A stretch of DNA of 64,000 bases, from contig JACIXR010000001.1 in NCBI GenBank assembly GCA_014360495.1, forward strand, positions 186,001-250,000, given 5' to 3'. A program made the position numbers and the translations under genes. Positions 22,746 through 32,231 of the stretch are shown piece by piece (position 1 is the stretch's first letter; every line of letters starts with the position of its first letter). Under the pieces are notes generated by a model. That model was given only the letters and a program-made list of their open reading frames with translations, did no database searches and was not told the DNA's origin. The DNA is from a bacterium (lineage in GTDB: Bacteria; Armatimonadota; JACIXR01).

Positions 22746-23198
22746 TTACCTACCCGCAGATGCCCCTCCCATTGGCATAGGACCTTTCCCCATCATACCT
22801 CCTCCCATCATGCCTGGACCCATCATTGGCGCACTGCCTCCGCCACCTCCCATTGGCATAGGACCTTTGCCCATCATACCTCCTCCCATCATGCCTGGAC
22901 CCATCATCGGTGCACCGCCTCCGCCACTTCCCATTGGCATAGGACCCTTCCCCATCATACCTGGACCCATCATGGGGGCGCCGCCTCCTCCAGGTGCATT
23001 CCCACCTCCCATCATTGCTCCGCCCATCATACCCGGACCCATCATCGGCATCATCGCGGGAGCGTTGCCTCCTGCCCCACCCACGGGAGCAACAGCGGTA
23101 GCTGGAGGTTTAGGTGAAAGCAAAACAACCGCTATGGTGGCGAGTAAGCAAACGATGAAGAATATAGCCGATGCCATAAGCATCTTATCGTTTTTCAT
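22746..23198 (-). CDS. Membrane-anchored Met/Gly/Pro-rich repeat protein
   Basis: A 150-residue protein: one N-terminal membrane helix (about residues 8-28), then a low-complexity region of a unit of about 27 residues built from GPGMMGGGMMGKGPMPMG and GGGGGAPMM, in about three copies plus partial ones. AAGGAGGTT at proper spacing before the ATG supports this strand over the proline-rich frame on the plus strand. Met-rich tails can bind copper or simply act as flexible extracellular chains; no function can be assigned. Confidence 0.65.
   Translation of the reverse strand: MKNDKMLMASAIFFIVCLLATIAVVLLSPKPPATAVAPVGGAGGNAPAMMPMMGPGMMGGAMMGGGNAPGGGGAPMMGPGMMGKGPMPMGSGGGGAPMMGPGMMGGGMMGKGPMPMGGGGGSAPMMGPGMMGGGMMGKGPMPMGGASAGR
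22770..23040. repeat. Tandem repeat of about 81 bases in the Met/Gly-rich gene
   Basis: Blocks such as CCCATTGGCATAGGACC followed by CCCATCATACCTCCTCCCATC and CCTGGACCCATCAT recur about every 81 bases, with one shortened unit. The repeat is in frame with the minus-strand protein, so unit gain or loss keeps the frame. Confidence 0.75.
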
Positions 23199-26537: not shown

Positions 26538-27318
26538 TGTATAATTCCATAACATTTGGGACTCCTTTGGTTATTAAATTCGTCTATATCCGTTGAGTCC
26601 AGCGGGTATACATCTATGAAATATTCTTGGATAGTTCTCTGGAATCGCTCCACATAGCCGTTCTCTTGCGGTCTCTTTGGATGGGTGTAGAAATGGATAA
26701 TACCCTTATTCCTGAGAAAATCTTCAAATTCTCCCGCGAACTCACTCCCGTTATCCGTTTGAACACACCCCGGAGGGAGGGGGATAACCAAATCTTGAGA
26801 CAACATCTATACCACTAATGAGGAACATCTTTACGCCATTGAGGAAAATCACGATTGAGTCAATCTGGACTAAATCTCCGGGACATTTGGGGTAAAAATT
26901 GCCTCTTCTTAGCTTTTTCTCTCTTTTCCTTTTCCTTATAACCAATTTCCCTGTTTTCCCGTAGAGGGAAACCTTTACATTTGGGTCTAATATTTCCCTT
27001 TTATCCTTTAGCCATTTTATAATCCTCGCTATTGTGGAAGCTGAGGGAGCTTTTATTCCTGTCTCTTTGCAAAACATATCCAACTCCTTCTTTAAAGGAA
27101 CCTGACCTAAACGAGGACATTCTTCTCTTCTATCCTTTTATATTGTATCACTCTTATATCCCAGTTTCTTTTTCTTGGATTTTTAGGTCTTCTTGAGAGA
27201 GGTCGGAGCGCTGCGGGGTTATAACCTGAGTCTTTGTATATCTTTAACTTAACTATATCTTCTCCTTTCAAATCTCTCCTCTTATCTATATATTCCAATA
27301 TCTTTTTGAAATTATTCA
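26538..27318 (-). mobile_element. Decayed IS481-like element (copy B), longest copy
   Basis: Three frames on the minus strand together give pieces of one integrase-core (rve) transposase: an N-terminal piece at 27107-27298 (NPAALRPLSRRPKNPRKRNW), a middle piece at 26751-27083 with the first catalytic Asp in PGDLVQIDSIV and DVVSRFGY, and a C-terminal piece at 26550-26800 with VQTDNGSEF (Asp) and ENGYVERFQRT (Glu). Between SRFGY and CVQTDNGSEF roughly 35 residues expected in this family are missing, and the join changes frame, so the enzyme is dead. The downstream end is TGTATAATTCCATAAC, shared with the other copies. Confidence 0.8.
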
Positions 27319-27373
27319 GATGGGCGCCTTTCCTCCAGAAATAATTTATTTGGGAAAAGATAGCGATTATTAA

Positions 27374-27655
27374 GAAAACGCGAAAAGATACATAAGGTCC
27401 TCCGAGAAGGAAAAGACAAGGGTACTTAATGATTTATGCCATACCTTCCATCTGAGGAGAAGTTATATCGCCCAGTTTTCAAGAATGTATGGGAGAGAGA
27501 ATACACAAAAGGAAAAAAGATATATACCGCCGAGCTTGTCTCTTTTCTTGAAAAGATTTGGCAAACCTCTGGTTATATCTCCTTCGAGCATCTCTACCAT
27601 TACATAAAGCATAACACAGACAAGCTTTTTGATAGTATAGAAAAATTTACAGTCA
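27374..27655 (+). pseudogene. Remnant of an ISNCY-like transposase, N-terminal part
   Basis: In one frame (from 27374) the translation reads AKRYIRSSEKEKTRVLNDL then RRSYIAQFSR, and in the next frame (from about 27485) ENTKG-like residues lead into AELVSFLEKIWQTSGYISFE and KLFDSIEKF. This resembles the N-terminal helix-turn-helix part of the integrase-type transposases with A-x-R-Y-x-x-A-x-K-x-E-K and L-x-K-I-W-E patterns. One frameshift joins the pieces. The catalytic domain is absent. Its end coincides with the point where the minus-strand radical SAM gene loses homology, so the insertion or a related deletion probably cut that gene. Confidence 0.45.
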
Positions 27656-28112
27656 TTTCGTCGCACTTTGCTTTTAAGGTCCTAGCTATTAAAAGTATTA
27701 TATTAGGGCATAGAAGGGGTTCACCGCCATAAAACGATATGTTCAACGCCTTGTATCTGCCCCCCTCCAGCTGATTTATTATCCAGTCGCAGACTTTTAA
27801 AGCGAAAGCTTTACCCATCTTCGTGGACGGCCTTGATTCCCCTTCGTAGCAATATGGGCACGCCATATTACACTCGTATGTCGGAAGTATTGTAACGCTT
27901 AACGTGTTCCCTGTAAATTTACTTCTCCAAAACAAAGTTTTTACCAGGGCTAACTCGTCTACTTCCTTGGAGACTATCAAATTGTTTTCCTCCAATTCCC
28001 GTATCACCTCAGGTTCAAGGGAATCTAAATTCCCTTCCTGAAGCGCTTTTGCCACCTCTTTGTTTATAAAGTTTATAAATGCGATAGTCTTTGATAAAGT
28101 ATTAAAAACCAA
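27600..28112 (-). pseudogene. Radical SAM/SPASM-type peptide maturase, 3'-truncated
   Basis: A 170-residue fragment. Residues 1-70 resemble the RiPP-recognition-like N-terminal domain of peptide maturases (VFNTLSKTIAFINFINKEV, ENNLIVSKEVDELAL); then comes TILPTYECNMACPYCYEG with the [4Fe-4S] ligands C81, C85 and C88, and the SAM-binding ISFYGGEPLL. Complete relatives have about 400-480 residues. Homology ends near residue 152 (CDEMTVNF), where strand 6-8 and the SPASM cysteines should follow; the last 18 residues are read antisense to the transposase remnant. It starts with TTG (stop TAA is just upstream) 107 bases after the second Cys-rich mini-protein. The family crosslinks Cys-rich or other precursor peptides. 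Confidence 0.75.
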
Positions 28113-28186
28113 ATAACCTTATATGAAAACAATTTTTCACCTTCCCCTTCGAGGGTCGTAAATTTAACTACTAATAATAGAGACTC

Positions 28187-28208
28187 CTAAGAACTTTATA
28201 ATTCTTAG
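28187..28208 (-). promoter_or_regulatory. Hairpin between Cys-rich peptides and maturase gene
   Basis: CTAAGAA (28187-28193) pairs with TTCTTAG (28202-28208) around an 8-base loop. The position between the mini-proteins and the radical SAM gene fits a partial terminator or processing site that would keep maturase expression below peptide expression. There is no long T tract, so the role is inferred. Confidence 0.35.
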
Positions 28209-28219
28209 TTTCCTACGGC

Positions 28220-28351
28220 CTAACATATACTTGCGCAATTAGCGTAATTTCTGCATAGGCTACAAAATTGTGACACCTCAAACCTTCTTACAACAGTTGC
28301 TCTAAAGGCTTGGGACCTTAAAATCTCTTTGCCAGTATCAACAGCATCCAA
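28220..28351 (-). CDS. Second Cys-rich mini-protein (possible decayed precursor copy)
   Basis: A 43-residue frame opening with TTG directly after, and in frame with, the TAG of the first mini-protein. Its C-terminus QFCSLCRNYANCASIC has Cys at 30, 33, 39 and 43 and matches QYCSRCTNHGDC of the first one. At DNA level the leader part also matches (TTAGAGCAACTG versus TTAGAGCAGCTG), but in this copy that stretch is in another frame, so the N-terminal half has shifted while the Cys-rich part stayed in frame. It may be a second core read through the TAG, a separate peptide, or a pseudo-copy. No Shine-Dalgarno sequence is obvious. Confidence 0.4.
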   Translation of the reverse strand: MDAVDTGKEILRSQAFRATVVRRFEVSQFCSLCRNYANCASIC

Positions 28352-28477
28352 CTACGTAACATACATTTTGCAATCGCCGTGATTTGTACATCGGCTACAG
28401 TATTGTTGACATTCCAACGCGTTCTCATATCGCAGCTGCTCTAAAAACTTGCTTTTTTCAAGTATGATCACTTTCAT
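28352..28477 (-). CDS. Cys-rich mini-protein, candidate RiPP precursor
   Basis: A 41-residue peptide starting MKVIILEKSKFLEQLRYENA with Cys at 23, 27, 30 and 36 in a C-terminal QYCSRCTNHGDC segment (C-x2-C-x5-C). The AAGGGGGTGA before the ATG is a good ribosome site at 5-6 bases, and the ATG overlaps the stop of the 1081-aa TPR gene (ATGA), so it is translationally coupled. A similar mini-protein and a radical SAM maturase follow on the same strand. A leader-like charged N-terminus and Cys-rich C-terminus next to a maturase is the layout of radical-SAM-modified peptides. I know no named family with this motif. Confidence 0.6.
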   Translation of the reverse strand: MKVIILEKSKFLEQLRYENALECQQYCSRCTNHGDCKMYVT

Positions 28478-31400
28478 TCTTTCACCCCCTTTCCTTGCTT
28501 TGAAAGGAAAGCCTCCCATCTTGTATGGAAATGTTTTTTGAAGAAACCGTTTTCCAATATGAGGGGCATAGAAGCACCTTTTGGACGCTTGGCAAAAATT
28601 ATATAGTCCGTCGCCCCACCAAGAGAAAGCGCTTCCTCAATAAGCTCGCTATCAAAGGAAAATATAATTAACAAAAATTTATCCTGATTAAGAGGATTGG
28701 GACTAATAGAAATCACACCAATTTCCCTCCCCTTATAAACCCTATTTCCAACCCGTATCACCTCTTTTTCTATATTGATCGGCAAATAATCTTTAAAAGA
28801 TTCCAATATTCTGTTAGAGGGGTCGCAGCTAATCAAGATTATGTTATTCTCCTCCAAGTCCTTATGAGAGATTTCCACAGCCTTTCTGAAAGTAGGCGAA
28901 CCTACTTCCTGTAATGCGACAGACGCCCATCGTTTAGCTAACTCTTCACACTTGAGTGTTCCCTGTTGGTTGGTTTGTGTCTCATAGATAAGCAACACAT
29001 TTCCTTTTGCCCAATCCTCTGTAAAGTCTTCATAAATAGAATTTATGGGGCCAATTACCCTAGCTTTAGCTTTGGTTTCGAGCTTAGCCGAGATAGTAGG
29101 GGTTTGAAATATATCTTTGATACTAGCAAGTAGACATTCATAAATAGGATACCATGCATCAACGCGAGGGATATTTTTTATTGCTCTTTCCAACATGACG
29201 ATGGAATCTCGGAAGTCGCTTATTTGCAAATAACAATTGCAAATCCCAATCAGTGCGAGGTTATAAATTTGTTCTCCAGGGGCGGAGCGCTGTAAAATTT
29301 TCTTATAGCAATTAAGCGCGGATGAGAAATCGAGCTTATGCTCGTAACAGCGAGCCATAAACCACAGAATTTCTTTGTGTATTTCATCAGGCAATTTGTT
29401 GCTCTGTGATTCTTTTAAGATAGATTCGTATGTTTGCAACGCTAAATCGTATTCCGCTTTAGCATATAATTCCTTGGCCTTGGAAAGCGATGCGATATAC
29501 CAACGCTTTTGGTTTTCTACTTCGTCTAAATTTAATGTTAATGCTTCGCCAGAGAAAGGAACCCACTCCTTTGGTGAAACTTTCCAGAAGTAGCCTTCCT
29601 CAATCACATCTATTCCTAACCTATCCGAACGAGAGGATGTAAAGACTATATAATCGGAGTATCCATAGAAAATAGAGGAAAGTCCTGTTAGCAAGGAAGG
29701 ATCAAAAGCACAGTAAACTAAAACGAATTTTTGGGGGTTATAGGGAGAAGGAGCAATCATAATAACACCCAGACGTTCTCCCATATAAGTACGATTAGCC
29801 ACCACTATTCTCTTTTCTTCAATTTTTATTGGCAAGCTGTCCTTTAACATAGCTAAGATTTTGTTGGACGATGGCGTACCAATTAGCACTAAGTCCTTTT
29901 CTTTCAAATCCTCAATATTAACCTCACTGTCAGGCTTCAAAGCAACAGGCAAGGAAGCTCTATATAGTCTCAAACTTTCCCCTAGATTTTTGTAAATGTT
30001 CTTGACTGATTCATCGCATTGGGTCCCGTAGACTATTGTAACCCTTCCCTTCCGAAAGTCCACTTTGAACTCTACATCCGTGACCGAGAAACCCTCAAAA
30101 ATACCAGTAGGTCCGAGCACATCTATAATAACCTTGCTTCCATGTTCAAGTTCTGAATTTAAATGAGGCTTGATAACATCCTTATAACTTTTTAGCAATC
30201 TTTTGGCTACGATAGACCAAAAATTCCAATCTCTCCCTGGCACTTTGCTTTCAGCTATTTCCTCCCACAATTTGTAAGTCTTTGCCAAATCCCCCATTTG
30301 TAAATAACAATAGGCGATTCTTAATTTTAAATATTGATAGCTATCCCTTGCCAAGACAATTTCTGGAGATAACTGCCGAATCGGTTTCTCTATATATTTC
30401 TGTAATACAGTGGTTTTCTTTTTAAGAACTTCTGAATAAGCGCCTATAGCCGCAGGATAATCTAATTTATGTTCGTAGCACCTACCTATATACAGCAATG
30501 CCTCGGCCTCTATATCATCTAACCCAATGTCTTTATATTTCTGTGATAATTCTTTAAAAATCTCCAATGCAAGGTCATATTTTCCTAAATCAAAATACCT
30601 CCCCCCTAAACCCAGAAGAGCCAGTGGTCTCTGGTCAATATGGCGATCCGCTACTTCTTTATACTTTTCAAGTGCTTCCTCGCACTCGCCTAATAAATCT
30701 AATGCATAAGCCTGATTTAATCCAGCCCTACTTAAAAACCAGTCCCCCTTATTTGCGGCTTCCAATGACTTCATCGCATAGGAAAGCGATTCCTTGTAGT
30801 TTCCCTCTTCCTTGCAAATCTCACTTAGCCAGTAGTTTGCCTCCCCTTTAAAGAAGGGGAAATCCTTCTCCACTTTCTCCGCTATGTATTTCGCCTTCTT
30901 GTAATCCTTCATCTTTATACTGCATTCAACCTGTCTAAAAAGAGCCCAAGGCTTTAATGGGCTATAAATTTCCCCCATCGTTTCATAAATCTCCCTCGCC
31001 CTTGCATAGTTGTTTTTATCCTCCTCCGCCAAAGCTATCTGTAAATAAGCCTCAAATGTGAGCGGGTTGCCAGGATATTCGCTGATGAAGGCATAGTAGG
31101 GAGAAGCTATACCATCCTCCACAGTGGATGAAATTGGGAAGGAGAGGGAATATAATCTAACTGCATCATATAAAACAGTGCCGGTTATCTCCTTATCCAC
31201 CCGCAGGATGATTTCTCCCCTCGTTGCTCCCTTCGGTGGCAATGCATAGAGGAAAATGGGCTCCCATCCCTCACTATCAGGATTGACAAAATATGGGGAA
31301 CGAGAGTTGCCCAGCCATCCCTTTTCCCCGTACCAAGCAATTGAGAGGTGTATCCTTCCCGAGGCGCCCTTCGTTTTCAGATAAGCTTCGCAGTAAAACC

Positions 31401-31719
31401 AAGTGTAATCGTTTTGATATTCGGCGAAGACGGGAAAGGATTGGCTTCTCCATCCCGTTGACCAATCAGTCTTACGCAAGCCGGCTGAGCGAATTCCATC
31501 AAAAGCTTCACCCGACCAGAAGAATTCCCCCTTCCCCCATCTATCCCAATGGCTTGGATAATTCCCCTCACCTTCCTCAAATGATGAATTGCTGATTGGT
31601 ATCTGATGCCAATCCTTGGAAAACATCTCCCTTCCCGGGAAACTAGCCTTTTGAGAAAAAGCAATCTCCAAGCTTATCAAGAAAACAAGCAAAAGAGAAA
31701 AAGACTTATAACTTCTCAT
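28474..31719 (-). CDS. Large secreted TPR protein with two repeated halves
   Basis: A 1081-residue protein with signal peptide (about residues 1-22). A jelly-roll-like region (about 30-190) is followed by TPR repeats (about 220-500), then a domain containing DLVLIGTPSSNKILAMLKD and GERLGVIMIAPSPYNP-QKFVLVY. After a second TPR set (about 740-870) this domain recurs as NNIILISCDPSNRILESFKD and GREIGVISISPNPLN-QDKFLLII. The domain looks like the substrate-free module found at the C-terminus of some large secreted hydrolase-like proteins. No catalytic residues recognised. It is preceded by a sigma-like gene (50 bases) and coupled to the Cys-rich mini-protein, so it may handle or respond to that peptide; this is inference. 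Confidence 0.6.
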   Translation of the reverse strand: MRSYKSFSLLLVFLISLEIAFSQKASFPGREMFSKDWHQIPISNSSFEEGEGNYPSHWDRWGKGEFFWSGEAFDGIRSAGLRKTDWSTGWRSQSFPVFAEYQNDYTWFYCEAYLKTKGASGRIHLSIAWYGEKGWLGNSRSPYFVNPDSEGWEPIFLYALPPKGATRGEIILRVDKEITGTVLYDAVRLYSLSFPISSTVEDGIASPYYAFISEYPGNPLTFEAYLQIALAEEDKNNYARAREIYETMGEIYSPLKPWALFRQVECSIKMKDYKKAKYIAEKVEKDFPFFKGEANYWLSEICKEEGNYKESLSYAMKSLEAANKGDWFLSRAGLNQAYALDLLGECEEALEKYKEVADRHIDQRPLALLGLGGRYFDLGKYDLALEIFKELSQKYKDIGLDDIEAEALLYIGRCYEHKLDYPAAIGAYSEVLKKKTTVLQKYIEKPIRQLSPEIVLARDSYQYLKLRIAYCYLQMGDLAKTYKLWEEIAESKVPGRDWNFWSIVAKRLLKSYKDVIKPHLNSELEHGSKVIIDVLGPTGIFEGFSVTDVEFKVDFRKGRVTIVYGTQCDESVKNIYKNLGESLRLYRASLPVALKPDSEVNIEDLKEKDLVLIGTPSSNKILAMLKDSLPIKIEEKRIVVANRTYMGERLGVIMIAPSPYNPQKFVLVYCAFDPSLLTGLSSIFYGYSDYIVFTSSRSDRLGIDVIEEGYFWKVSPKEWVPFSGEALTLNLDEVENQKRWYIASLSKAKELYAKAEYDLALQTYESILKESQSNKLPDEIHKEILWFMARCYEHKLDFSSALNCYKKILQRSAPGEQIYNLALIGICNCYLQISDFRDSIVMLERAIKNIPRVDAWYPIYECLLASIKDIFQTPTISAKLETKAKARVIGPINSIYEDFTEDWAKGNVLLIYETQTNQQGTLKCEELAKRWASVALQEVGSPTFRKAVEISHKDLEENNIILISCDPSNRILESFKDYLPINIEKEVIRVGNRVYKGREIGVISISPNPLNQDKFLLIIFSFDSELIEEALSLGGATDYIIFAKRPKGASMPLILENGFFKKHFHTRWEAFLSKQGKGVKE

Positions 31720-31769: not shown

Positions 31770-32231
31770 TTATTCCTCCTGAAAAAATCCTTCCAATTTT
31801 TTCTTAACTATCTCCTTTATTCTCTTACATTGGGAGCAAACCGTTCCTATAGCCTTGCCAAGCTCCTTCGCAGTTTCCGGTATGGATTTGCCCTCTATGA
31901 ATATCCTTACCCCTACCTCCCTTAACTTCGGGGGAAGCTCCCCTATTATCTTTCTCACCTCTTCCCTCAAAGCTTCCCTTTCAATCTCCTCCTCCAAATC
32001 TTCACCGGCTTCGCTCTCCTCATAATCATACCACTCCAGCACCTTAGAGGGGTTTCTTCTAAACCAATCAGCTATGACACTGTTAGCCAGCTTCTTCCTC
32101 AACCAGTTGTCAAACCTCCCTCTACCAGCGAATCCTCTAATCTTATTAAAAAGACGAAGAAGAAATTCTCCCTTAACATCTTCTACATCCTCTTTGGGAA
32201 CCTTCCACTCAATTATCCGCGCCGCTATCAT
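31770..32231 (-). CDS. ECF sigma factor-like protein
   Basis: A 153-residue protein resembling extracytoplasmic-function sigma factors. Region 2 is suggested by VPKEDVEDVKGEFLLRLF and GRFDNWLRKKLANSVIADWFRR (-10 recognition), a linker rich in Glu follows, and region 4 by IGELPPKLREVGVRIFIEG and SIPETAKELGKAIGTVCSQCKRIKE (helix-turn-helix). The start at 32231 gives a short region 2.1, so the N-terminus may be incomplete (see the 52-aa gene). It lies 50 bases before the TPR gene and may control this run of genes. Confidence 0.65.
   Translation of the reverse strand: MIAARIIEWKVPKEDVEDVKGEFLLRLFNKIRGFAGRGRFDNWLRKKLANSVIADWFRRNPSKVLEWYDYEESEAGEDLEEEIEREALREEVRKIIGELPPKLREVGVRIFIEGKSIPETAKELGKAIGTVCSQCKRIKEIVKKKLEGFFQEE

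Follow-up and report, generated by a model that had tools for sequence, protein, structure and literature searches.

Gene order at the locus

Within the window, the whole 64,000-nucleotide stretch of DNA from an Armatimonadota bacterium that was analysed here, the locus reads along the minus strand in the order ECF sigma factor, TPR gene, two short Cys-rich frames (mini1 and mini2), radical SAM fragment and mobile-element remnants. The ECF sigma factor (31770-32231, minus strand), which matches TIGR02937 over the cut-off and lies upstream of the TPR gene, is a possible regulator of the locus. The TPR gene (28474-31719, minus strand) encodes a protein of 1081 aa with Pfam TPR matches, whose start resembles a signal peptide and whose S-layer-like domain is duplicated; the gene overlaps mini1 (28352-28477, minus strand), an intact Cys-rich frame of 41 codons, MKVIILEKSKFLEQLRYENALECQQYCSRCTNHGDCKMYVT, considered here as a candidate RiPP precursor. 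Mini1 is followed on the same strand by mini2 (28220-28347, in a frame of 28220-28351), with the Cys core QFCSLCRNYANC, and by what remains of a radical SAM/SPASM peptide maturase (27645-28132, including the fragment frame 27645-28112), assigned from NCBIfam families and its reading frames. A stem-loop does lie between mini2 and the maturase, as in the original prediction, but its energy is like that of shuffled sequence (z -0.29); as it does not rise above the shuffles, the hairpin was rejected as a regulatory structure.

The mobile-element remnants (26538-27321, no strand assigned) were recognised from copies in the same genome and from a fragment of the integrase core rve_3 (Pfam, over the cut-off). 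Two multi-copy repeat pieces within them, 26538-26810 and 27126-27321, have many near-identical copies across the genome, and in other genomic copies the two are directly joined, an arrangement like that of a deleted-IS or MITE-like family. The TPR protein belongs to a family with a repeated S-layer-like domain that is amplified in the genus, with paralogs in genomes G000 (C14, C4 and C5), G001 (C28) and G002 (C71, C11, C148 and C124). Further along the window (22746-23198, minus strand), a protein of 150 aa, which has a membrane segment at its N-terminus, carries Met/Gly/Pro-rich tandem repeats (MMGPGMMG...KGPMPMG).

The two Cys-rich frames

The start of mini1 overlaps the TPR stop as ATGA (ATG at 28477-28475, TGA at 28476-28474), with a purine-rich, ribosome-site-like stretch immediately 5', and both bases and frames agree with the 41-codon, translationally coupled gene originally described. 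Its leader is encoded by ATG AAA GTG ATC ATA CTT GAA AAA, and its four Cys residues are spaced x3, x2 and x5. Searches of NCBIfam and Pfam with mini1 and mini2 returned no family match, and a search of its own genome with mini1 found no copy besides itself; it is the single intact copy in all data examined.

At the DNA level mini2 is homologous to mini1, with a local alignment score of 71 against 17 +/- 2.8 for random segments of the window, none of which (0/2978) matched mini1 as well. The counterpart of the leader, ATG CTG TTG ATA CTG GCA AAG, begins with the ATG at 28347 (MLLILAKRF) and lies in a different frame from the Cys core, the alignment containing several indels; at the 3' end the frame shifts again, and the last Cys of the open frame comes from this shift. 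The related frame at 28220-28351 therefore exists as DNA homologous to mini1, but as a decayed copy; its TTG start is an artefact, being only the first codon past the stop of mini1. The split between leader and core frames, together with a score of 1.2 bits against the precursor profile described below, led to the rejection of mini2 as an independent gene, so that the two mini-proteins proposed at the outset are reduced to one gene and one decayed duplicate.

The Cys motif that had been noticed in both frames is shared above chance, as CxxCxNxxxC in frames of 20-90 aa was found in none of 30 dinucleotide-shuffled windows versus the mini1 and mini2 frames in the real one. This bears on the possibility that both frames are open by chance alone, in degenerate sequence separating the TPR gene from a pseudogene. 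Short frames are common and mini2 is clearly no gene, but the shuffled windows yield nothing comparable, and coincidence would have to account for the duplication, the ATGA overlap and the profile match alike, which makes this explanation very unlikely.

Maturase remnants in two sister species

The radical SAM gene with CNMACPYC had been correctly recognised. The fragment scores 99 bits against NCBIfam NF038107 (E 3e-28), 94 against TIGR04463, 85 against TIGR04334 (Clo7bot) and 77 against TIGR04280 (geopeptide), exceeds the cut-off of Pfam Radical_SAM PF04055, and carries both CNMACPYC, a CxxxCxxC cluster motif, and GGEPLL; the cluster Cys residues and GGEP are invariant across 24 aligned sequences. 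Its N-terminus is homologous to those of relatives in an alignment that also spans the radical SAM motifs, and is predicted to fold as strand-strand-helix-helix (pLDDT 86), while a fold search using the fragment returned nothing significant. The maturase-like N-terminus originally described is thus present as homology, but it is split over two frames, MFSYKVIW (from a TTG at 28132) and LVFNTLSK (from 28112), by a frameshift near 28113-28120, where relatives read straight through MKxSxYN...LAFN. Similarity ends near 27645 rather than extending to 27600, after about 156 codons and one helix beyond GGEPLL, leaving the N-terminal domain and, of the radical SAM domain, only the first third. The truncation point adjoins the mobile-element remnants and falls before the C-terminal SPASM domain with its auxiliary clusters, which is absent from the window with the rest of the enzyme. 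Neither the missing half nor another close copy was found in the same genome, and searches with the fragment gave only distant radical SAM genes, both in 60 genomes of the phylum and in G001, the third species of the genus.

A counterpart of the locus is present in the sister species G002, a metagenome-assembled genome in which mis-assembly is possible. The locus sequence also appears in the public record JACIXQ010000017.1 (MAG-56). Here a TPR ortholog with 55% identity to the TPR gene of the window lies upstream of a maturase remnant; this ortholog is broken by one TAA (L071 6608-6612). No mini-genes are found between the two and mini1 is missing, the TPR gene being followed by a possible maturase start, MKISKYTLIKRMD. 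The maturase itself runs from the equivalent of GGEPLL to just before the SPASM domain, with nothing after GVGREQFKVGS, so that the two species hold complementary pieces, the front in the window and the middle in G002. Directly after the remnant comes an ABC ATPase, together with two more genes that resemble those of membrane proteins (permease-like); the best matches to this ATPase in G000 and G001 have about 30% identity. The ECF sigma factor is reduced to a 29-aa remnant. The same TPR gene, the complementary maturase fragment and the ABC genes support the reading of the locus as a RiPP locus. Sequence comparison establishes homology, gene order and breakage in both genus species that have the maturase, which bears out the earlier view that the locus is disabled: there is no working system in the window.

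Intact relatives and known maturase families

When 84,980 species genomes were scanned with a query alignment led by a chimera that joins the window and G002 maturase fragments, 80 loci were obtained in many phyla; apart from G002 itself, they share roughly 23-38% identity. In many of them the maturase is adjoined by small frames that are rich in Cys and have good ribosome sites: nine in L090, three in L094, two each in L085 and L112, and one each in L086 and L095, with downstream mini-genes in L091, L122 and L126. The precursors are of the MKYIIKP...YCxC type in L090, MDFILKP in L094, MVYLIDP/MIYLIDP in L085, L095 and L112, and MEWIVEP in L086. Mini-protein genes thus do lie beside full-length maturases in relatives, as the check proposed at the outset asked, but without the exact motif Q[YF]CSxCxN[HY]x[DN]C, which was looked for in the relatives and not found. 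Placement of the fragment in RiPP maturase families, together with relatives in which Cys-rich mini-genes adjoin the enzyme, supports the RiPP-locus reading.

Several of these loci have features of their own. Tandem arrays of Cys-rich precursors precede intact maturases in L094 (1686-2081, WOR-3) and L090 (4075-5786, Clostridia). In L086 (5953-11358, Desulfobacterales), four tandem maturase-like genes, each beginning MKxSxYN or similar, follow one precursor near an ABC transporter, and in Theionarchaea (L138 5690-5917 and L144 5717-5893) small genes of tandem FCALEVQPT repeats lie directly before maturase-like genes.

A precursor profile was built from 21 precursors of intact relatives. With one locus left out at a time, it reached at least 10 bits in 8 of 76 upstream stretches, compared with a single one of the 76 when the reverse strand was read, and left-out true precursors mostly scored 8-20 bits, a range that includes the 15.6 bits (E 6e-4) at which mini1 ranked best of 886 window frames. 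This score was reached by none of 1000 full shuffles of mini1 and, when the Cys positions were kept, by 2 of 1000. Mini1 was again at the top in a background of 288 kb, mostly from the same genus, and against 30 shuffled windows, all else scoring 10.8 bits or less. A 22-residue C-terminal piece alone still scores 14.8 of the 15.6 bits, so the match is carried mostly by the Cys core; the likeness of the leader, which lacks the xP found in MKYIIKP, to those of the relatives' precursors is suggestive only. The RiPP-type locus of the original prediction is upheld by this fit and by the adjoining of the relatives' mini-genes to the same maturase type.

The mini-proteins could instead be independent small metal-binding or regulatory (zinc-ribbon-like) proteins that merely lie beside a dying radical SAM gene, with mini1 working with the TPR protein. 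This would accord with the intactness of mini1 although the maturase is dead, with its overlap with a conserved TPR gene and with the absence of a matching NCBIfam or Pfam precursor family. However, mini1 ranks first against the precursor profile, the order of mini-genes and then maturase recurs in other phyla, the TPR paralogs in the genus have no such mini-genes, and G002 has the TPR gene without mini1, so we regard this explanation as unlikely.

An ABC ATPase similar to that of G002 directly follows the maturase in L089 and L129 and lies beyond an intervening precursor in L122; in ten relatives such a gene is found on the same strand no more than 3.5 kb downstream, against a single opposite-strand match in all relatives. 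This supports, without proving, the view that the ABC genes of G002 were once part of the peptide system. TPR and sigma genes were also sought as general maturase partners, and no match was found near 79 relatives. That they belong to an unnamed RiPP lineage of the genus, in which the ECF sigma factor and the TPR/S-layer-like surface protein are part of the system and the modified peptide is produced along with the surface protein instead of as a free bacteriocin, seems to us quite unlikely.

The locus is most probably a decayed RiPP locus whose intact form comprised mini1-like precursors and a radical SAM/SPASM maturase. We infer its binding, modification, export and function as follows. The mini1-like peptides would be held by the N-terminal RRE-like domain of the maturase, which would modify their Cys-containing cores, thioether cross-links being the likeliest chemistry by analogy; the product would then be exported, probably by the ABC transporter still found 3' of the remnant in G002. 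In the window species the maturase has been frameshifted and cut off beside the mobile-element remnants, the second precursor copy frameshifted and the exporter lost, leaving mini1 as the sole intact remainder; in G002 the precursors have been lost and the maturase reduced by an internal deletion and loss of its SPASM end, with the exporter kept. Points against the RiPP reading are the dominance of the Cys core in the score, the leader without xP, the single intact copy of mini1 in the data, the absence of a significant fold match, and the grouping of the maturase, on a long branch and through a chimeric row, with geopeptide maturases, whose peptides (LDEG...CC) look different.

Over about 340 positions the chimera scores 226 bits against CefB (NF038107, cut-off 600), 196 against geopeptide (TIGR04280, cut-off 400), 193 against TIGR04463 (cut-off 525) and 175 against Clo7bot (TIGR04334, cut-off 600). 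This amounts to 0.5-0.7 bits per position versus the 0.93-1.36 demanded by the cut-offs, so truncation and the missing end alone fail to explain the low scores. In an IQ-TREE tree of 78 rows, where the genus maturase is represented by this chimera of two species' fragments, it is sister to the geopeptide clade (98/85, bootstrap not fully settled) on a branch of 1.11 changes per column. The low scores, including those per position, the long branch and a core motif not seen elsewhere in its exact form could be taken to indicate a genuinely novel RiPP class, separate from the Clo7bot/geopeptide/CefB group and with a chemistry peculiar to it. However, the N-terminal start resembles that of the named families (MKxSxYN... 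in relatives, MKISKYT in G002) and the radical SAM motifs and operon logic are the same, making a separate class very unlikely. By sequence, the enzyme is an unnamed lineage among the Clo7bot, geopeptide, TIGR04463 and CefB maturases, and so of a known kind.

The undescribed class originally proposed has weak support: the system of the window scores under all cut-offs and is an unnamed lineage, but its architecture is already represented in NCBIfam by Clo7bot, TIGR04463, CefB and geopeptide. The claim is further weakened because L090 is a true Clo7bot locus, with an enzyme at 719 bits and two tested peptides above the 31-bit cut-off of TIGR04333; nine other near relatives tested fall below all NCBIfam cut-offs, as does the WOR-3 locus L094. 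With this locus the Clo7bot/geopeptide/CefB maturase group gains a diverged branch that has no name, and the piecemeal loss of such a locus is seen in two sister species. The scan also yielded intact loci without a family name, in WOR-3, Zixibacteria, Desulfobacterales and other groups, with their precursors and enzymes.

Among the named systems, Clo7bot (TIGR04334/TIGR04333) resembles this locus in its short, Cys-rich precursors, which are about 40 residues long, begin with a hydrophobic segment and occur in multiple copies immediately upstream of their radical SAM/SPASM maturase; the N-terminal domain of that enzyme is also the same. However, the window enzyme and the chimera both lie far below its cut-off, neither mini1 nor mini2 matches TIGR04333, and mini1 has no xP after its hydrophobic start. 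The geopeptide maturases are the sister group in the tree, but the chimera, aligned over 330 of 428 positions, remains under their cut-off and Geobacter-type precursors are unlike mini1. CefB and TIGR04463 are the top families for the fragment and rank first and third for the chimera, though well under cut-off, and the Cys-every-fifth arrangement of CefB differs from the spacing in mini1. A profile of the relatives' maturases matches 8VPO, which is TigE, an enzyme that is not known to make thioethers, so the chemistry of the product cannot be read off. The closest solved structure by sequence is PDB 5WGG (E 5.6e-5), which we take to be the thioether-forming SCIFF/ranthipeptide maturase CteB. 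CteB combines an RRE with radical SAM and SPASM domains, and both its RRE and its thioether chemistry have been described (PMC8326336). SCIFF precursors differ in having six Cys in 45 residues, compared with four in mini1, and the SCIFF maturase model scores only 35 bits.
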